The translations under genes and the position numbers were made by a program. A DNA stretch of 64,000 bases, from contig NZ_JAINZZ010000006.1 in assembly GCF_019890725.1 (NCBI RefSeq), forward strand, positions 62,001-126,000, given 5' to 3'. The notes under the pieces were generated by a model. The model was not told the origin of the DNA. It saw nothing but the letters and a program-made list of their open reading frames with translations, and did not search any database. This document shows positions 11,921-35,526 of the stretch, one piece after another. This stretch comes from Actinacidiphila acidipaludis (GTDB lineage: Bacteria; Actinomycetota; Actinomycetes; Streptomycetales; Streptomycetaceae). Position 1 is the stretch's first letter, and each line of letters opens with the position of its first letter.

Positions 11921-11996
<76 letters not shown>

Positions 11997-12097: not shown

Positions 12098-13279
12098 TCA
12101 GCCAGGCTCGCCGCCCGCCTCTCCGTCGCCTACCGAGAAGATCTCGTCCATGGCGCCGGCGCCCTCAGTGATCACCGGCCGAAGCTGCTTCCTGTAGACC
12201 GCTTCTGTTGTGGCCGTGCTGGTGTGACCGACGACACGCGCGATGACCTCCAGCGGGATGCCGTGGTCCGAGAGCAAGGACACGAAGCTCTGCCGGAGCT
12301 CCCGCGGCGTCCACTCGCGAGCGAGCCCAGCTTTGACGACGATGGCCTTGAAGTCGCGTCGTACGTGTGAGGCGTCCAGTGCGTTGGCTGTCCTCGTTGC
12401 GAAGACCAGGCCCGTGCCGGACCACTCCAGCCCGGCCCATGCGCGCTCCTGCTGCTGCCACCTCCGATGCTGCTCCAGCACCTTCACGACGTGTTGCGGC
12501 AGAGCCAGCGTGCGGCGGCTCCTCCGTGTCTTGGTGTCACCGTGCCGGCGCACAGACCGCCAAACCTCAACGTGCGGAGCTGTGCCCTCTGCCGGCGACA
12601 GATGGACGTGGTCCCACGTGAGGGGGCGGGCCTCTTCCGTCCGAATGCCAATGAGCAGCGACAGCACAACGTAGGCGTACAGCCTGGTTCCCTGTGCTGC
12701 TGCGAGGACGGCTTTCGCCTGGTCCAGCGTGAGGGCCTTGCTTGGCCGGCCGGGGCGTCCCTCCGGCACGGTGACCAGTTCGGCGACGTTGCGAAGCACC
12801 TTGTCCCGTCGCTGGGCGTGTGTGATGGAGCGCCGCAGCACCGAGTGCGTCTCTCGCAAGGAACGCGTGGCGAGCACGTCGGCGCGGTCATCCAACCAGT
12901 CGTCTACGTCGTCGGCCGTCAGGTCCTTGAGCTTGGCCTTGCCGAGGAACGGGATCACGTGGTTGTCACCGAGGCTGCGGCACTTGTCGACGGTCTTCTG
13001 ATCCCGTCCCTTGAGCCCGCGGGCGATCCAGTCATTCACGGCGTCGGACACGGTGTAGTTGGCGGGCGTCTTCACGCCCGTCTCGACCTCCTTCTTGAGG
13101 TCACGAAGCTTGGCGCGTACTTCGGTCTTCGTCTTGCCCCGGACCTTCACGCGCCGCCGCTTGCCGGCCGGGGTGAAGCCGAGGGAGACGGCTCCCACGA
13201 ACCTGTTCTTGGACGCGTCCCAGTAGATGGAGTCAGCGCCGTTTCCCGCCTTACGGGGTGTCTTCGGTTCCGTCGTCAT
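12098..13279 (-). CDS. int: Tyrosine site-specific integrase (AICE-1)
   Basis: The 393-residue recombinase has the N-terminal SAM-like DNA-binding part ([16 protein letters not shown]) and a C-terminal catalytic domain. Catalytic motifs are the first Arg in [15 protein letters not shown], box [19 protein letters not shown] (Arg replaces the usual first His, a common variant in actinobacterial phage integrases), [11 protein letters not shown], and the nucleophile Tyr in TEAVYRKQL. It would recombine the 46-bp att core. It faces the tRNA and is separated from xis by a strong hairpin. Confidence 0.96.
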
Positions 13280-13353: not shown

Positions 13354-13578
13354 TCAGGCGGCGTTGATGGCCTCGGCCTTGAGCAGGTCGATGTACTCCT
13401 CGATGTATTCGGTCGGGATCAGGCGGCGACGGCCGACGCGGACCGTCCGCAGCCTCCCCAGCCGGATCTCCTCGTAGGCGGTCGAGCGGCCCACGCCGAT
13501 CACTTCGGCGGCCGACTCGACACAGTGCAGGCGCCGCGCAACGGTGGGCGGAGCAGCGTCCGTGACAGCGGTGGTCAC
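13354..13578 (-). CDS. xis: Excisionase (helix-turn-helix)
   Basis: The 74-residue protein has a MerR/Xis-type winged helix-turn-helix: CVESAAEVIGVGRSTAYEEI followed by GRLRTVRVGRRRLIPTEYIEEYI. Small proteins of this type beside AICE integrases bend att DNA and drive excision. It starts with GTG or ATG near 13578 and lies immediately beside the iteron region. The AICE-2 equivalent (62038-62271) is similar in plan but clearly diverged. Confidence 0.88.
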   Translation of the reverse strand: MTTAVTDAAPPTVARRLHCVESAAEVIGVGRSTAYEEIRLGRLRTVRVGRRRLIPTEYIEEYIDLLKAEAINAA

Positions 13579-14938: not shown

Positions 14939-15297
14939 ACGGCCAGCCTCCTTTCCGGTACGGGGTGACGCAGGCGGCATACCTGTCGGTGGTCGTTGTG
15001 GGCTTGGACGAGGGCGAGCACGTCGCGTCGGCCGGAGGCTTCGACGTGCCGGCCGCACAGGCAGTCCGAGGTGGCCCACGGGATCGTGTTCCAGCTCGGC
15101 GGCGCGATGACGTGCAACCACGCAACGGGCTGGCGCTCGTCTGTCGAGCGCGGGTGAGGGAGAAGGGCTGGAAGGACGCCTTCGGCGACGACCTTCGGCG
15201 CGTTACTCGCCGCGGGAGCTCCGGGCGGTGTGGCGGAGCCGGGGTGGTCGGGGGTGGGCGTGGGGCGTTTCAGCGGCGGGGTGGTGGGGGTGGTCAT
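14935..15297 (-). CDS. Conserved small AICE protein (Cys/His pattern)
   Basis: The 120-residue protein has a Pro/Thr-rich N-terminus and a conserved second half: WLHVIAPPSWNTIPWATSDC, LCGRHVEASGRRDVLALVQ, HNDHRQVCRLRHP. The C-L-C-x-x-H and later H/C suggest metal binding, but the family is not one I can name. It is wedged with ATGA overlaps between prim-pol and rep in both elements of this window, so it is probably part of the replication module. The AICE-2 copy (63623-63985) is nearly identical in the WNTIPWATSDCLCGRHVEAS core. Confidence 0.75.
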   Translation of the reverse strand: MTTPTTPPLKRPTPTPDHPGSATPPGAPAASNAPKVVAEGVLPALLPHPRSTDERQPVAWLHVIAPPSWNTIPWATSDCLCGRHVEASGRRDVLALVQAHNDHRQVCRLRHPVPERRLAV

Positions 15298-16193
15298 GAG
15301 GCTTCCTGCCGGGGTCGCACGGTGCGCTTGGAGTAGGCCAGTGCGCTGCGGATCGTGGCGCGGCACTCGACCGCGGTGAGTCCCGCCGACTCCCCCGCCG
15401 CCTGAAACGCCTCTTCCACCGTGGCGCGGCCGATGTCCCCGCGAGCCACGTACCGGCCCACCCGGATCACCGCCCGCAGCAGTTCCGTGTTGCGCGCCCC
15501 GACATCGCGACGCGCGGCCACAGCGGCGCTCTCGCGTTCCAGGGCTACCGCAGCGCAGCGGGAGGCGTCGCGGACCGGCGGGACGCGGAACGGGCCCGCC
15601 ACGGGCCCCTGAGAGGGCGTCAGGGCGCTTTGCAGCCATTCGGGCAGGTCTGCAACGGGTGCGTCGCCCAGGACCGTGTACGAGCCCCCAGGGGTCACGG
15701 ACCCGGGGGCGACGACCTGTCCGCCCCATGCCCGGGTATCCACGCGCGGGGCAAGAGTCCCTGCGGAGTTGGTCAGCCGGACGCCGGGCGGGGCGGTGAA
15801 GTACAGGTGCGTGCCGCCGCTCGCGGTCCGGATCGTGCGCGTGGTGGGGACGGGCTGTCCGGCGCGCTCGCAGAGCGCCAAGAAGTTCGCCGCGCCGTCA
15901 GGCGTGCCCTTCTCGTCTGTCGGCTTGCACCTGTCGAGATCGACCACCAGCAGCCCGGCGGGACCGGTGGCGATCCCAACGTTGAACGGACCGGCAGCCC
16001 AGCACCGCTCGATACGGGCGGGATCGGTGGTGGCGCGCTGCTCGAACGTCTTGTGCCCGGTGCGGCAGTCTCCGGTGCGGTGACAGGCACGCTCGCCGTG
16101 CAGGTTGGGGATCTTCCGCCCGGGCCATAGCGGGATGACGGGCCAGCCTCGTTCGGCGGCGTCCAGCGCGGCGCGCAGGAGGTGTTGGTTCAT
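15294..16193 (-). CDS. Bifunctional primase-polymerase (prim-pol) domain protein
   Basis: The 299-residue protein has the archaeo-eukaryotic primase-type prim-pol motifs: GLLVVDLDRC (metal-binding DxD), TASGGTHLYF (sxH motif) and AWGGQVVAPGSV. The N-terminus AALDAAERGWPVIPLWPGRK is typical of plasmid and phage prim-pol proteins, which make primers for element replication. Its start at 16193 and stop at 15294 both overlap neighbours by four bases (ATGA), so it is co-translated with the small protein and rep. There is no helicase domain in this protein; DUF3631 may supply it. Confidence 0.9.
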   Translation of the reverse strand: MNQHLLRAALDAAERGWPVIPLWPGRKIPNLHGERACHRTGDCRTGHKTFEQRATTDPARIERCWAAGPFNVGIATGPAGLLVVDLDRCKPTDEKGTPDGAANFLALCERAGQPVPTTRTIRTASGGTHLYFTAPPGVRLTNSAGTLAPRVDTRAWGGQVVAPGSVTPGGSYTVLGDAPVADLPEWLQSALTPSQGPVAGPFRVPPVRDASRCAAVALERESAAVAARRDVGARNTELLRAVIRVGRYVARGDIGRATVEEAFQAAGESAGLTAVECRATIRSALAYSKRTVRPRQEAS

Positions 16194-16914
16194 GCGGCCA
16201 CCGCCAGGGTGTGGGTGGTGAGGAAGGCGCGGCCGATCCATTCGCCGTAGGCGGGCGGGACGGCTTCGGTCAGTTCCTCGCGTACGTCGTCCACGTGATG
16301 CCCATCGCGGCTTGCAGTTCGGGGACGGTGCCTTTGCCGCCGCCGTTGCCGTAGGCGGCGACATAGGGGCCGTCTTCGTACTTGCCGTGTCGCCATCCGC
16401 GTACCTTCCCGCGATGCGGCAGGTGCGCCGGCCGCAGGGCGCTCCACCCGCCCAGCTCGAAGTTGCGGTGCCGCAGCACGCCGAGTCCGAACATCTCCCC
16501 GCACAGAGTGATGTCCTTGCGGATCTTCGCGCGCCCGTTGGGCTGCTCCAGCACGTACGGCAGGCCGGAGCGTTCGAGCAGGGCCCGGGTCGGCGCGACG
16601 AGGTCGACGTGTTCGCGACCCCAGCCGCGTGCGGTGTTGGTGCCCACGGTCAGAGCGCACTTGGCCTGGCAGGGCGGCGCGGCGTTGACCAGGGTGTAGC
16701 GGCGGATCTTCCCGGTCCGGATCAAGCGGTCGAGGTGTTCGAGGGCGTCGGCGACGGTCAGCCGGAACGGGTAGTTGGGGCGGTCGACGTGGTCCACGCC
16801 GTGGACGTCGAATCCGGCGCGTGCGAAGCCGGTCGCGATCCCGCCGGCGCACGAGTACAGGTCCAGCAGTAACGGCCGATCGGGCCGTCGCCGGTTGCGG
16901 ATGGGATGGGTCAT
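16190..16914 (-). pseudogene. Frameshifted C5 cytosine DNA methyltransferase
   Basis: The N-terminal frame starts at 16914 (MTHPIRNRRRPDRP) and has methyltransferase motif I (DLYSCAGGIATGFARAGFDV), PCQ in NAAPPCQAKC, and YVLEQPNG in place of ENV. It stops at 16270, just before the usual end. The expected C-terminal motif (REELTEAVPPAYGEWIGRAF) is in another frame, from about 16290 to the stop at 16190. That stop overlaps the prim-pol start (ATGA), the spacing used by its neighbours, so the downstream frame is the ancestral one. A one-base loss near 16280-16286 would explain it. Sequence error, decay or recoding are all possible. Confidence 0.75.
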
Positions 16915-27953: not shown

Positions 27954-29135
27954 TCATGCCCGATCACCGAATAGCCGAATGACGCCTTCATCCGTCAGGC
28001 CGTCACCTTCAGTCGATGACGGCTCAGAGAAAAGATCCTCGCGAGTTGGCACTCTGGCAGCCACAGTGCGGAAGAGCCCGGGCGTCACTCTAGCCTCCCT
28101 CGCCAACGCCAGTTCTCCTATGCCGACCTGACCCAGCAGTTCTACAGCACGGGGATAAAGCGATGGCTGCTCCACGGCAGGCATTTCGCCAGGTTCACGC
28201 CTTCGCCAACCCTTTGACGAGAGGTAGGCGATCGCGTTCCTATATGTAACATCACTCATAACGCCCAACGACCGGGCGCGGTACAGCAAAGCCTGGAGAC
28301 TTACCCCATAAGCCTCCTTCAAGCTGGCAAGAACCCGCCAGTTTGCCTTACTTGGCAGCAAATCTCGCACCTCACTCTCAGGCAGCAGCAGTTCAGCAGC
28401 GAACCGGTGCGCCTGATTCTCTACGACTTTACTGCCCGGCTCAGCGTCAACATGCATGACAAGATGCCCAAGCTCGTGGGCTACATCAAAACGCTGGCGA
28501 TAGTAATCCTCTTTGGCGGGATTCAAAACGATCGTCGGCCTGTAATCATGATCAAAAGAATACGCATCAACAGCAGCGACCTGCACAGGACTGAAAACAA
28601 CGACTACGCCATTATTCTCAGCCAGCCTGACCAGGTGTCCAATCGGCCCCGCCTTCAGATCCCAATGCTTACGTAGCAACCGGGCAGCCTCTTCCGGCAC
28701 AGAGCTAACCACGTCGTCGACATCTACGCTTAGGCGGGGAAGATTTGGCTCCGGAAATTCGACGTGCCGCTCAAGAGCGGCACCAACATCCCCAGCAATC
28801 ACGCCGTACGCATAGGCTTGATCGCGAGCAAGCTGCGTCGTAGAGCGCAACGAGCGAAAGTGCGGCGTTGCGTTGCTGCCAGCAAACTGTTGCGGTCCCG
28901 GCAGGAAAAAGCCCGGATCCACGCCAAGCGTCAAGCACAACTGGGCGACCGTGGCTGGCGCCGGCCGCTTTGTATTACTTTCGTACGCTGCGACAGCGGT
29001 TGCACTCTTGTCGATCTTCGAGGCTAGTGCATTCTTTCGAAGCCCAACCAACTGCCGCGCCAATGTCAAACGCCGACCATCAAAAAGGCGAGAGGCGTCA
29101 CCAACCTGCACTTCGGTGCGGCGCGAGGAATTCAT
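27954..29135 (-). CDS. XRE-family regulator fused to ImmA/IrrE metallopeptidase
   Basis: The 393-residue protein has an N-terminal helix-turn-helix (LTLARQLVGLRKNALASKID, AVAAYESNTKRPAPAT). A zinc metallopeptidase domain follows with the HExxH in FDVAHELGHLVMHVD and a downstream Glu-containing helix (NQAHRFAAELLLPE). ImmA/IrrE proteases cleave repressors or antitoxins, and fused XRE-IrrE proteins are common in toxin-antitoxin and phage-defence loci. Base composition is clearly less GC-rich than the chromosome. It is 18 bases downstream of an unknown 269-residue gene and likely co-transcribed. Confidence 0.88.
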   Translation of the reverse strand: MNSSRRTEVQVGDASRLFDGRRLTLARQLVGLRKNALASKIDKSATAVAAYESNTKRPAPATVAQLCLTLGVDPGFFLPGPQQFAGSNATPHFRSLRSTTQLARDQAYAYGVIAGDVGAALERHVEFPEPNLPRLSVDVDDVVSSVPEEAARLLRKHWDLKAGPIGHLVRLAENNGVVVVFSPVQVAAVDAYSFDHDYRPTIVLNPAKEDYYRQRFDVAHELGHLVMHVDAEPGSKVVENQAHRFAAELLLPESEVRDLLPSKANWRVLASLKEAYGVSLQALLYRARSLGVMSDVTYRNAIAYLSSKGWRRREPGEMPAVEQPSLYPRAVELLGQVGIGELALAREARVTPGLFRTVAARVPTREDLFSEPSSTEGDGLTDEGVIRLFGDRA

Positions 29136-29153
29136 GACTAACCACCCATTTCG

Positions 29154-29963
29154 TCACTTGTCGTTCCCCTCCCGTGCCGCGCGGCGGAGTCGAACAGGGG
29201 CGTCCTGAACGCCGCTCGGCGCCGGACGAGGACTCGGAGTCACTGGAATCGGCCCCGAACCGGGAGTCCCGAAGTCGCTAGCAAGTAGATCATGCTTCCA
29301 GTACCACGCCTCGCCTCCCCCTCGGTTCAAACGAGAACGCCCTAGGTAAAGTTCTCGGAGGCCCAAGTCGAGGTTCACGCTGTGAGCGACGATCAGAGTC
29401 GTCAGTTCGGAGTCTTCAGGCTCCTCGGCCAAGGCTTGCAGGACAGCCATCAGAGACGGGTCATCGCCATCGTCGAAGGGAAGCATGGGGTGCGTGTCCA
29501 GCCACCCCTCGGGCTTCGCTTGGGAAGCAACCCGTCGCTTCGTGGGACTCTTCTGTGACCAGGGGATGGCGTCGCTCTCGCCATAGACGAACGAGGCGAG
29601 CAAGAACCGCCACCTGCCGCTCCGCCAGCCTGGCGAGCGGTTGAGGTGAGACCAGGTGACCTCACCTGGAACCACTGCCGGCATCTTCTCGTACTCGCCA
29701 GGGAAGAGACCGGCTGCCACCGTGTCCAAGCCCTCAGAAGCGGCCGAGAGCTCCGCGACGCCGTGTCGACCCGTGGAGAAAACCCTGTGCAGACGGTCAC
29801 AGAAGAGCCTGTGAGCGGTCGACCCAACCCAGCCCTGGTCATGCCCAGTGTCCGGGTCGAAGTCCTCCATCGTGCGGCGGTAGGCCGACGCGTTGGCCCA
29901 AGCAAGGGCCACCAGTACATCGCTAGACGCGAGATCCTCAAGCGCATCCTGCTGCTCGCTCAT
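29154..29963 (-). CDS. Unknown partner of the XRE-IrrE protein
   Basis: The 269-residue soluble protein begins MSEQQDALEDLASSDVLVAL. It has a Trp-rich middle (SPGWRSGRWRFLLASFVYGE) and ends in a Pro-rich, basic tail. HSVNLDLGLRELYLGRSRLN looks like a structured helix. I recognise no family, signal peptide or catalytic motif. It is the first gene of a two-gene operon with XRE-IrrE, so it may be the protease's substrate, a toxin or a sensor; none of these is shown by the sequence. Confidence 0.7.
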   Translation of the reverse strand: MSEQQDALEDLASSDVLVALAWANASAYRRTMEDFDPDTGHDQGWVGSTAHRLFCDRLHRVFSTGRHGVAELSAASEGLDTVAAGLFPGEYEKMPAVVPGEVTWSHLNRSPGWRSGRWRFLLASFVYGESDAIPWSQKSPTKRRVASQAKPEGWLDTHPMLPFDDGDDPSLMAVLQALAEEPEDSELTTLIVAHSVNLDLGLRELYLGRSRLNRGGGEAWYWKHDLLASDFGTPGSGPIPVTPSPRPAPSGVQDAPVRLRRAAREGNDK

Positions 29964-32431: not shown

Positions 32432-32743
32432 ATGAGCAAGGTCCCGGAGAACGGTGAAGAGAAGGCGTCCGAGACCTCCAGTCCTGTAGCCGGCGAGCCT
32501 GCTGAAGCCAAAGCCGGCCCGGTCAGGTCCGGGCCCTCCTGGAAGCAGATCGCCGTAGCGGCCGGCGGCTTTGCTGTCACCGTAGCGGGCACAGTCGTCG
32601 TCACCCTCGTCGCGACGCACAACTCCGCGCGTATGGCGAACGCGGCGGCGTACGCCCACGGCCTGCTTGACGGGGCCAAGGCCGCGAGGAGCGGTTACGA
32701 CTTCGACGAGGATGACGACTACTTTGACGACGAGGACGACTAA
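32432..32743 (+). CDS. Small single-TM protein with acidic tail
   Basis: The 103-residue protein has a charged N-terminus, one transmembrane helix (IAVAAGGFAVTVAGTVVVTLVA), and a tail ending in FDEDDDYFDDEDD (strongly acidic). The ATG at 32432 follows GGAAGG with about 10 bases spacing. It stands alone between the HEPN-motif gene and the DGQHR operon. I recognise no family; single-TM small proteins in defence islands can be membrane effectors, but this is speculation. Confidence 0.65.
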   Translation: MSKVPENGEEKASETSSPVAGEPAEAKAGPVRSGPSWKQIAVAAGGFAVTVAGTVVVTLVATHNSARMANAAAYAHGLLDGAKAARSGYDFDEDDDYFDDEDD

Positions 32744-32857: not shown

Positions 32858-34363
32858 CTAGTTGATGGGCTCGGGTTCGCCACTAGCGAGCTCGGTCCAG
32901 GTGTCGGAGAGGATCTTGTTCTCGACCTGACTGATGTGCGCCGGGGTGTTCGAGGCTGCCGCTGCGACGACGGTCTCCCCAGTGCTCTTCAGCTTCACCG
33001 TCTTCTTGGTGCCGTTCTTCTCCTGCAGACAACCCGTGATCCGAATCCAATGCCGGCGGTCACGCCGCCAGTCAATGGCAGCCAGACGCTGCTTGAACTC
33101 GTCAAAGGACACTGCCGGAGTAGGCACCGACTGTTCCGCGATGATTTCGGTGAACCTCTTCACCAACTGCTCAGTCGTATCGTCTCCGGTTGCAGTCTCC
33201 TTCTGCATCGCGTCCATGATCGGACCGAGTTTGTCGCGCCGCACCTGGTTGTAGGCCAGTGCGAGAGCCTTAAGGGCGAATGCCCACCCATGGACATACA
33301 GCCGTCGGTAGGTGTCCGCCTGCTTGGTGTCGTTCCAGGCACCACCGAATTGACCTTCCAACATTTGCAGGAACTCACGGCAGTACGGCAGAACCGCCTC
33401 GATGTGATGGTGCTTGATGTGCTCGCGCTTGCGGTTGCCGTGGGAGATCACGTTGAGCAGCATCTGTTCGAGCGTCGATGCGTCGACGATATTTTGCACC
33501 GCCGTGAGCGTGGCTCCCGTACTGCGGCCATCGGCGACGCGGTTCTCGAAGATGGTGCCCTTGACTGCCTGGTTGCGCAGCTTGGCCAGGGCGGACGAGG
33601 TGTCGAAGGTCGCCACCAGGTTGGTGTTCTTCTTCGTGCCGCGTCCATTGCGATCTGCGAAACTCTGGGCCGCCGCGTCGACGTCAACTTTTAGTTCGAC
33701 CTCGAGTGTCACGAAGAAGGTGTCAAGTGCACCGTTCTGGAGAGCGAGACGATTTTGCGCTGCCTCGAAGAGGGCGGCGGTCTGGGTCTGCCCATCGGCC
33801 TGCATGATGGGCCGTTTGGGCAGGTAGATTTCGCCGTAGAGGGCCGCCGGGTTCGCTTCATCGAATGCGACGAAAATGGGCTGAGGGTCCTCCTCGAACT
33901 CCTCGACCGACTGCCACCCGGTGACTGTAGGCAGGTAAGCGACCCGCTCACCGCGGACGGCCTCCAAAATGTACCGACTGAAGTCACCACGGTTGGCGGC
34001 CTTCGCGCCCTTGAAGTCGCTCTGCGTCTTCAGGTGAGCGGCCTTCATGCCGTTGGCCTCGTAGTCGACAGCTCGCGGCGGATCGGAAGGGTTATACCTT
34101 ACGAGGTCCGTAAACTGCCGCAGGCTGGGATGGACTGTGACGCAGATGCGGTATCCGCCCTCCGCACCTTTAAGGCACAGCGTGCCGCGGATAGCGTGCC
34201 GCTTCTCACTCTCATGCTGGAAGCGAAAGCGATGCTGCTCGAAGTTGGCTCGTGCCTCCTCATCCGAGCTGACACGCAGGATGCGCAGGCCCCCATATGC
34301 CTCATCCTCGGGGATTTCGTCGATGTTAATCAGCTTCTGCTGACTGATGAATGGCGTACTCAT
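32858..34363 (-). CDS. DGQHR/DndB-like protein
   Basis: The 501-residue protein follows the layout of DndB/DpdB-type DGQHR proteins. A helical N-terminus with DFSRYILEAVRGERVAYLP is followed by KRPIMQADGQTQTAALFEA, where DGQHR is replaced by DGQTQ. Then come AAQSFADRNGRGTKKNTNLV (the FADLNRxxxxPxKxL-like segment) and FDTSSALAKL. DGQHR proteins control DNA phosphorothioate or deazaguanine modification genes and may bind DNA or nucleotides. The start at 34363 overlaps the upstream gene (ATGA). No dndA, dndCDE or preQ0 genes are nearby, so its role is open. Confidence 0.7.
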   Translation of the reverse strand: MSTPFISQQKLINIDEIPEDEAYGGLRILRVSSDEEARANFEQHRFRFQHESEKRHAIRGTLCLKGAEGGYRICVTVHPSLRQFTDLVRYNPSDPPRAVDYEANGMKAAHLKTQSDFKGAKAANRGDFSRYILEAVRGERVAYLPTVTGWQSVEEFEEDPQPIFVAFDEANPAALYGEIYLPKRPIMQADGQTQTAALFEAAQNRLALQNGALDTFFVTLEVELKVDVDAAAQSFADRNGRGTKKNTNLVATFDTSSALAKLRNQAVKGTIFENRVADGRSTGATLTAVQNIVDASTLEQMLLNVISHGNRKREHIKHHHIEAVLPYCREFLQMLEGQFGGAWNDTKQADTYRRLYVHGWAFALKALALAYNQVRRDKLGPIMDAMQKETATGDDTTEQLVKRFTEIIAEQSVPTPAVSFDEFKQRLAAIDWRRDRRHWIRITGCLQEKNGTKKTVKLKSTGETVVAAAASNTPAHISQVENKILSDTWTELASGEPEPIN

Positions 34364-34863
34364 GGCGTCTCCTGCTGGGAGGGCTCGGCGCCCGTCGAGG
34401 CGAGCAGCCCGGACTGGCCTGGAATCACGGGAAGCGATGTGGGCTCTTCGAAGGTCGGGACGCCACCTGCGTGAGCAAGGGCGGGAGGCAGTGCGACTAG
34501 CTCGATCGAAAGGTTCATCCTCTCAACGGTGTAGCGAAGCTCGGGCTGAAAGTTGAACGCTGCGATGACGCCACGGATCAAACAGTCGTTGCCGGCGGCT
34601 TCCTCAGCCCGGCGCGCCATGGCCACGTAGACCAGGATCTGCCCAAGCGCCTCGTAACTCGCACTGATCTTGAACTCCCACAGGCGAGTGACGTTGCTCC
34701 GGTCAATGGTGCGCATATCCCCGCGCACGGCCGTGCCGTCGTAACTGTTCTCCCGGGCGATAAGCAACTCGCCCGGACGGTGCTGGGCCAGTTCCGAAGC
34801 GTAGTAATCCCGCACTCTGCACTCGCGCTCATGCAGCACTCGATCCCCCGTCGTTACTTCCAA
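34360..34863 (-). CDS. PD-(D/E)XK-like nuclease
   Basis: The 167-residue protein contains GDMRTID followed by VTRLWEFKIS and LGQILVYVAMARR. The Asp, then E-x-K in WEFKI, then Gln-containing helix is the core order of PD-(D/E)XK nucleases with the conserved Q motif. It is the first gene of a two-gene operon with the DGQHR-like protein (4-base overlap). The start is uncertain: TTG at 34863 overlaps the stop of a short upstream frame, and GTG inside GATCGAGTGCTG is an alternative. It would be a restriction-type or transposition-type nuclease. Confidence 0.6.
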   Translation of the reverse strand: MEVTTGDRVLHERECRVRDYYASELAQHRPGELLIARENSYDGTAVRGDMRTIDRSNVTRLWEFKISASYEALGQILVYVAMARRAEEAAGNDCLIRGVIAAFNFQPELRYTVERMNLSIELVALPPALAHAGGVPTFEEPTSLPVIPGQSGLLASTGAEPSQQETP

Positions 34864-34949
34864 CTCTCGTCTCCATCAACCTCTGCCTCGGAGAGGCTAG
34901 TTGATGCCTCGTCAGGTAGCAAGTCAATCTCCGAGATGTATATCCACAT
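34854..34949 (-). CDS. Possible leader peptide upstream of the nuclease gene
   Basis: This short frame of 31 codons (MWIYISEIDLLPDEASTSLS, then an acidic end) has an ATG at 34947-34949 and a TAA at 34854-34856 that overlaps the TTG start of the nuclease frame. Translational coupling is conceivable. Without homologues this may be chance. Confidence 0.25.
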   Translation of the reverse strand: MWIYISEIDLLPDEASTSLSEAEVDGDESWK

Positions 34950-35480
34950 CGCCGAGACGACAGCGTGCACGCACGGCTGGACATGGACGGCAGCCTGCGT
35001 GAGTACTGCGCCCGGTACTCCAACCCTCCGCAGACGCCGCGGGCCTCCGCTCTGTCCCGCGGCGACCGACCTCATCAGAGCAGTGGAGGGTGTCGATACC
35101 GATCGCGTCTGATGACATGCGACAGCTCACGACGGTGAGGCCTGGGGCTGTGTGCAGTCGACTACCCCGCCATCGGAACTGACGGTCGTCAACGGAGGTT
35201 TGACGGGGCGCGTGTCGAAGGTCCCGGCCGTCAGTTGAGCGGGCCCCAACTGGGTTGGGAGCTCCGGGAACGGGCCGCGACAAGGCGGAGCACGAGACGC
35301 AGAGTCACTCGGATACTGCGTGATACCCCCTTCAGTCCATGCCCGAACGGGCGCAATGCTCCTCCGACGGGGGCCAAACCAGGCAGCCACGCCAGGACTG
35401 TCCCGGACGATAACGAACGGCGCTGGAGCTGAATGAGCAGGTCAGCGACCGCGAGACGAAGTCGCAAAGGGGCCTCATCG
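34950..35480. other. Right end of AICE-1 without recognised genes
   Basis: These 531 bases between the nuclease operon and attR contain only short, poorly biased reading frames on both strands. Nothing recognisable apart from the approach to the att core. It may hold the leftward operon's promoter and integrase arm-type sites. Confidence 0.5.
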
Positions 35481-35526
35481 CGTTCGGGACGAAGAGGCCG
35501 TGGGTTCAAATCCCGCCACCCCGACT
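35481..35526 (+). repeat. attR core (46-bp direct repeat, copy 2)
   Basis: Exact copy of 11951-11996, the 3' part of tRNA-Pro. The 5' half of the tRNA is missing here, so no second tRNA is encoded. It marks the right end of AICE-1. Confidence 0.95.

Follow-up and report, generated by a model that had tools for sequence, protein, structure and literature searches.

The ParB-superfamily proteins DndI and SspE combine a DGQQR domain with a nuclease and read a DNA mark of their host, a phosphorothioate made by other genes (PMC11662687; PMC13251355). According to the available excerpts of these sources, DndI nicks DNA that carries no phosphorothioate and leaves marked DNA after mark-stimulated ATP hydrolysis, and it becomes harmful to cells when the mark is lost (PMC11662687); the arginine of the DGQQR motif is essential for NTP hydrolysis in both enzymes (PMC13251355; PMC11662687). 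The type IV enzymes GmrSD and BrxU also have a ParB-superfamily part and a nuclease part, and are described in excerpts as HNH nucleases that act on glucosylated hydroxymethylcytosine (PMC4619093; PMC12839542). DndB, the repressor of dnd operons, has the operator TACG-N10-CGTA in the part of its description available (PMC4507180). Dpd, the system of the 7-deazaguanine mark, is known as an island that holds modification and restriction genes together.

In this work, we examined a gene pair in the window, that is, the whole stretch of 64,000 nucleotides of Actinacidiphila acidipaludis DNA that was analyzed:

34360..34863, minus strand: predicted PD-(D/E)XK nuclease, 167 aa; inferred TTG start with GGAG 7 nt 5' of the TTG
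32858..34363, minus strand: DndB-like protein with the DGQTQ motif, 501 aa, ATG start

The two frames share four bases (34360-34363), as had been noticed from the sequence alone. Taken as a whole, our reading of the pair as a mobile restriction module of two genes that relies on the Dpd (7-deazaguanine) mark of its host ascribes to it a putative function and is, in our judgment, evenly balanced between right and wrong.

The assignment of the larger protein to the DndB type by the sequence-only reading was borne out by a match to Pfam DndB (PF14072; 39.8 bits, above the cutoff of 29.1), and DGQTQ occupies residues 190-194. The DGQHR-domain model TIGR03187 was missed (28.0 bits vs. a cutoff of 58.85), and the DpdB equivalog NF041060 gave no match. 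DGQTQ stands in place of DGQHR in all 16 homologs, among which FADRNGRG-x-KK is likewise invariant. The arginine that ends the DGQQR motif is therefore glutamine in 16/16 sequences, so an NTPase switch of the SspE/DndI kind may be absent. A structure model (mean pLDDT 80.4) had no Foldseek match at E 0.001. In a structure comparison, 13 of the first 15 rows were ParB-superfamily proteins (ParB-N, pNOB8 ParB, Noc, ParB, BrxU, SspE, and Spo0J), all weak (Z ≤4.8) and found among de novo helical repeats, which is consistent with membership of the ParB superfamily but is not proof of it. A PDB sequence search with this protein returned a single chance-like match (E 0.78). Neither protein of the pair matched the Dpd models of PADLOC or NCBIfam, and no Dnd match other than DndB was found among the eight window proteins scanned (five for PADLOC).

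Searches of Pfam, PADLOC, NCBIfam, and PHROGs with the nuclease gave no match even with E as high as 1. The D...ExK...Q core that had been proposed for it is present as D49, E63-x-K65, and Q75 (Met = 1), which, together with E38, are unchanged across 15 of 15 homologs. The structure predicted from 14 sequences (mean pLDDT 81.4) shows the PD-(D/E)XK arrangement of alpha-beta-beta-beta-alpha-beta and most resembles the NucS/EndoMS nuclease domain (Z 14.3 and rmsd 2.1 for 107 residues), for which the matches score Z 14.3, 14.2, and 12.8, against 10.4 for the best other protein. The likeness is confined to this domain and is weak in sequence: the D, E-x-K, and Q residues align with their NucS counterparts in a profile search with E 0.098, and NucS is also the sole match in a PDB sequence search (E 0.098). 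From this model, it is close to certain that the protein has the PD-(D/E)XK fold, the absence of which had been named beforehand as speaking against the sequence-only reading.

A seven-row DndB-like alignment, used to scan 84,980 species genomes once, recovered the gene at 11 genomic loci in four phyla, a lower bound because the scan needs exact short peptide patterns. These loci belong to Streptomyces hirsutus, Lentzea alba, Streptomyces sp. NRRL F-5123, Micromonospora alfalfae, S. hyderabadensis, S. qinglanensis, Ectobacillus funiculus, Hymenobacter sp., Cupriavidus necator, Ensifer sp., and Photobacterium sp. A nuclease frame lies immediately upstream in 10 of the 11 loci, representing three phyla, so the pair is conserved together in other genomes as well. 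The distances among nucleases agree with those among DndB-like proteins (r = 0.94, 0/2000 permutations, n = 15). The pair was also found on a Sinorhizobium plasmid and four viral contigs. Querying viral contigs with the nuclease alignment, in which these sequences were included, yielded those four and no others, and the four are not all independent since contig L007 has frames identical to those of the Cupriavidus region L018. A search of the phage collection with the DndB-like protein gave no match. Among 100 relatives, the pair is restricted to the genome of the window (G000) and NRRL F-5123 (G015).

The exception to the pairing is Ectobacillus, where AddB-like and UvrD-like genes precede the DndB-like gene and the nuclease is absent. 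This locus (L016 4577-11491) thus presents another nuclease-helicase pair with the same DndB-like protein, and two palindromes lie upstream. Relatives of the AddB-like and UvrD-like genes adjoin the pair in Hymenobacter (L017 3231-9300). The nearest named locus to the pair of the window is that of Streptomyces hirsutus NRRL B-2713 (99%). A small membrane-like protein with an acidic tail faces the pair in the window (32432-32743) and has 85% identity over 88 residues at the S. hirsutus locus.

The pair had been placed at the end of a mobile element, and we found it to be the final cargo before attR of a 23.6-kb integrative element of actinobacterial type in tRNA-Pro(CGG) (window 11951-35526), which includes the following features:

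11951..11996, plus strand: attL, 46-bp repeat equal to the 3' end of tRNA-Pro(CGG)
12098..13279, minus strand: tyrosine integrase of the element (PF00589, 71 bits)
15294..16364, minus strand: Prim-Pol replication protein of the element (PF09250, 152.6 bits)
35481..35526, plus strand: attR, second copy of the repeat and end of the element that bears the pair

A TraB/FtsK-like ORF inside the element was named by eye and has no Pfam match at 0.001. Other defence-like genes do adjoin the pair, as claimed from the sequence: PADLOC profiles identified RosmerTA at 27954-29963 as cargo of the same element, with a strong match for RmrA (362.5 bits) and a weak one for RmrT (30.9 bits). A 553-aa protein at 30297-31958 matches nothing in Pfam, NCBIfam, or PADLOC; its RNVVVH near the end resembles the R-x4-H motif of HEPN RNases, and the gene is a candidate for a further defence function. 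The att repeat of the window is kept at the S. hirsutus locus. Near the pair, Lentzea has a 27% integrase match beside tRNA-Val, Micromonospora has TraB and Prim-Pol, and S. hyderabadensis has integrase matches beside tRNA-Pro, while phage tail, lysis, or integrase genes adjoin it in L007/L018 (Cupriavidus) and L008. The pair is therefore often carried on mobile DNA, namely, integrative elements and prophage-like DNA, in several lineages.

The lead to Dpd was the Sinorhizobium plasmid record, whose annotation places dpdA, two dpdB, and queC/D/E a few kb from the pair; dpd-like genes are also near the pair in L015, L017 (Hymenobacter), and L019 (Ensifer). We searched the 12 genomes and the single plasmid record that contain the DndB-like gene with a DpdA profile. 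All 13 carriers, which amount to approximately nine host lineages, contain DpdA (338-767 bits at the best place). DpdB was found in 12 of them, the exception being Ectobacillus, and 11 have two or more DpdB. With a strong match defined as >300 bits, and the weaker matches of 18-37 bits taken to be ordinary TGT enzymes, strong DpdA occurs in one genome (G139) among 395 others in the phylum of the window and in two of 397 other genomes of Pseudomonadota, the phylum of Cupriavidus. Among the 100 relatives, strong DpdA is limited to G000, G015, and G064, i.e., both carriers and one of 98 non-carriers, with a chance of 3/4950 for that set alone. A sample of 35 genomes of the genus contributed nothing further to this DpdA result.

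The sequence-only reading had noted that no modification enzymes accompany the pair. This is correct for the window, where no Dpd genes were found, but not for the genome: contig C85 encodes a FolE2-type enzyme, QueD, QueE, QueC, DpdB, DpdA, DpdB, DpdD, DpdK, and DpdJ. DpdB, DpdA (626 bits), DpdB, DpdD, and DpdK exceed the NCBIfam cutoffs; the FolE2-type enzyme (212.6 bits) falls just below its NCBIfam cutoff of 215 and exceeds the Pfam cutoff; DpdJ scores 2196 bits with our own profile, and QueC/D/E were called by similarity. A stand-alone two-gene restriction system, as that reading proposed, would fit a unit that recurs across loci and a window devoid of Dpd genes, but DpdA in 13/13 of the carrier genomes or records checked speaks against independence, and we regard this explanation as highly improbable. 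The pair very probably depends on Dpd or partners with it.

The reverse does not hold, since G064 and G139 contain DpdA, DpdB, and DpdJ without a DndB-like gene; the pair is thus optional for Dpd. DpdJ is present in 11 of the 12 carrier genomes, Hymenobacter being the one without (best score 23.7 bits), and was not found on the Sinorhizobium plasmid record, for which that replicon only was searched. The pair is therefore mostly an addition to the usual Dpd restriction operon. That it replaces the canonical operon was an idea drawn from the loci of rhizobia and Hymenobacter, and it was rejected as a rule given this DpdJ count. Nor did a link to islands with two DpdB hold: three of four other Dpd-positive genomes have two DpdB near DpdA and one has one (G064 and G139, which lack the DndB-like gene, and G603 and G679, which were checked for the pair in the 20 kb around dpdA). 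Ensifer sp. LCM 4579 (G109) has two dpd clusters, on contigs C2 and C16 (L082 and L019), one with DpdJ and one beside the pair.

The constant presence of DpdA might also be expected of a modification accessory, with the DndB-like protein serving as a third helper of the DpdB type and the nuclease nicking DNA for base exchange by DpdA. DpdB is itself a DGQHR-domain protein, related by profile to DndB-type proteins. However, the DndB-like and DpdB profiles do not cross-match at E up to 1 in the dpd loci of carriers, most carriers already possess a plural set of DpdB, and G064 and G139 have their Dpd genes without the DndB-like one. We consider such a role very unlikely.

The distance between the pair and dpd varies among carriers. 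The pair (in Ectobacillus, the DndB-like gene) is within approximately 35 kb of dpd in G105, G106, G107, G109, and plasmid W01; the loci in or near dpd islands are those of rhizobia, Hymenobacter, S. qinglanensis, and Ectobacillus. Cupriavidus has both on a single contig with approximately 2.8 Mb between them. Seven genomes have them on separate contigs, for which a distance is a minimum only (>90 kb in G000 and G102). Amino acid identities also differ between the DndB-like protein and DpdA: 99 and 88% for the window vs. S. hirsutus, 79 and 53% for the window vs. Lentzea, 55 and 66% for the window vs. S. hyderabadensis, 91 and 68% for S. hyderabadensis vs. S. qinglanensis, and 54 and 61% for Lentzea vs. 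Micromonospora, respectively. Because the order of relationships is reversed in places, different rates alone do not account for these values. Overall, the DpdA and DndB-like distances are correlated (r = 0.78, 0/2000 permutations, n = 13), so part of the co-occurrence may reflect common inheritance. Nevertheless, the module is often apart from dpd and yet, in all carriers checked, occurs with Dpd, which makes linkage alone an insufficient explanation; a functional need would explain the pattern. Our proposal is that the module is seen only in Dpd-positive cells, though it often travels separately, because it would damage a host without Dpd.

The same mobility could be taken to indicate that the pair counteracts or tunes Dpd, such that elements and prophages survive in Dpd-positive hosts by repressing or misleading it, with the nuclease directed at modified DNA or at competitors. 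Carriage on integrative elements and prophage-like DNA agrees with this idea, as does the retention of the canonical restriction gene DpdJ by most carriers, and co-occurrence with Dpd would be expected. It is less easily reconciled with rhizobia and Hymenobacter, whose dpd islands themselves contain or adjoin the pair, and anti-restriction does not obviously need a nuclease that has kept its catalytic residues. We think this explanation rather unlikely.

Upstream of the operon, we found a palindrome that may serve as an operator:

34927..34937, no strand assigned: candidate operator, an ATCTCSGAGAT palindrome that lies 64-74 nt before the nuclease start
34948..34958, no strand assigned: imperfect second copy of the candidate operator with two mismatches, 21 bp from the first

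An exact ATCTCNGAGAT stands no more than 160 nt upstream of the operon in eight of 16 loci (the window, L010, L012, L011, L019, L005, L009, and L016). Three more have it with one mismatch (L018, L006, and L008) and L013 has it with two; at up to two mismatches, it was not found upstream in L014, L015, L017, or L020. Several of the 16 loci are close relatives. Counting the window in full, the 16 loci span 343,577 positions and contain 10 exact matches, nine of which are in the upstream stretches (two of these in Ectobacillus). By eye, a GAGAT precedes the first arm of the palindrome by 10 nt in L018, L019, and L006 and by 9 nt in L016, and the GAGAT-N10-ATCTC of some loci resembles the geometry of the DndB operator as given in the available part of its source (PMC4507180). 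Other palindromes are located upstream in L014, L017, and L020 (shuffle P 0.16, 0.01, and 0). Since the inverted repeats of single loci are mostly not significant against shuffles (P 0 to 0.6 over the 16 loci), the case for an operator rests on the recurrence of the same sequence across lineages.

The palindrome also occurs away from the operon, with two to 13 exact copies per genome. The genome of the window has seven, none of them on its dpd contig C85. Apart from the copies at the pair itself, those listed on contigs with dpd genes are one inside a dpdA-type ORF in Hymenobacter, one inside dpdJ in S. hirsutus, and five in Cupriavidus that are far from dpdA; Photobacterium has two more such copies. 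A control with the pattern reversed was disregarded, as it contains TAG/CTA and is a poor one in GC-rich genomes. In Hymenobacter, L017 11543-13645 encodes a second DpdA with an extra N-terminal region, and ATCTCNGAGAT is inside this ORF at 13380. In Streptomyces NRRL F-5123, an ORF that appears transposase-like by eye (L012 9006-9587) spans the palindrome (9427) on the opposite strand. A longer, frameshifted nuclease was also considered, since the core of a Sinorhizobium ORF is preceded by M-Y-I-D-I-S-E-I and a different frame of the window encodes ISEI; this was rejected because the shared stretch is the palindrome in DNA and several homologs start near the TTG.

Ectobacillus keeps the palindrome without the nuclease, which makes the DndB-like protein the likelier binder on the basis of one locus. 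Judging from these sequence patterns, the DndB-like protein probably autoregulates the operon via the candidate operator. Two overlapping genes with a palindrome upstream, carried on mobile DNA, would also suit a toxin-antitoxin system, in which the nuclease is an addictive toxin, the DndB-like protein its antitoxin and autorepressor, and the link to Dpd a matter of genomic context only. Such a system would leave unexplained why DpdA accompanies every carrier checked when its base rate is <1%. An antitoxin of 501 aa is unusual and counts against it, and so does Ectobacillus, in which other genes replace the nuclease beside the retained DndB-like gene and palindrome. A toxin-antitoxin role is thus distinctly unlikely.

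Returning to the Dpd-dependent restriction module, the DndB-like protein would bind its own palindromic operator and keep the operon low, and may also read, or be licensed by, the 7-deazaguanine mark. The PD-(D/E)XK nuclease would be the effector, and its putative rule would be to cut unmarked DNA; the two proteins may form a complex with a role in defence. A variant, which we hold to be hardly probable, is that the DndB-like protein senses 7-deazaguanine at its own GAGAT operator, such that the mark keeps the operon off, and its loss, e.g., when a phage blocks Dpd, frees the operator for production of the nuclease. If so, the pair would be a mobile guard of an epigenetic mark and an alarm for the loss of modification, not an ordinary restriction enzyme.

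Strict co-occurrence with a mark that the pair does not encode is expected if the nuclease harms unmarked cells, and we therefore place the pair as an analog of DndI/SspE, with which it shares a DGQ-motif part of putative ParB-superfamily type, a nuclease, and a mark made by other genes. It differs from them in that the co-occurring mark is 7-deazaguanine rather than phosphorothioate, the two parts are separate proteins, the nuclease is of the PD-(D/E)XK rather than the HNH type, the motif is DGQTQ rather than DGQQR, the Pfam family is DndB rather than DUF262, and the pair is often carried by mobile DNA away from the modification island. With DndB, it shares the Pfam family and a palindrome upstream of the operon, but the motif, the nuclease partner, and the association with Dpd set it apart. 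The pair resembles the Dpd restriction operon dpdD-dpdK in being found with DpdA, DpdB, and preQ0 genes, but it matches no Dpd model and coexists with DpdJ. BrxU appears among the weak fold matches, whereas the HNH nuclease and substrate of the GmrSD/BrxU enzymes differ. Full-text literature searches, with a coverage that excludes most subscription journals, returned no description of the pair, and it is undescribed in the available portions of PMC10853773, PMC12704722, PMC4507180, PMC11888242, PMC6884629, PMC12839542, PMC13251355, and PMC11662687.

If our reading is correct, mobile elements would exploit a DNA mark of their host as a passport, and the principle of DndI/SspE would be extended from phosphorothioate to 7-deazaguanine. 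As a two-gene system that is easily moved, the pair offers a direct test of how 7-deazaguanine may be read.
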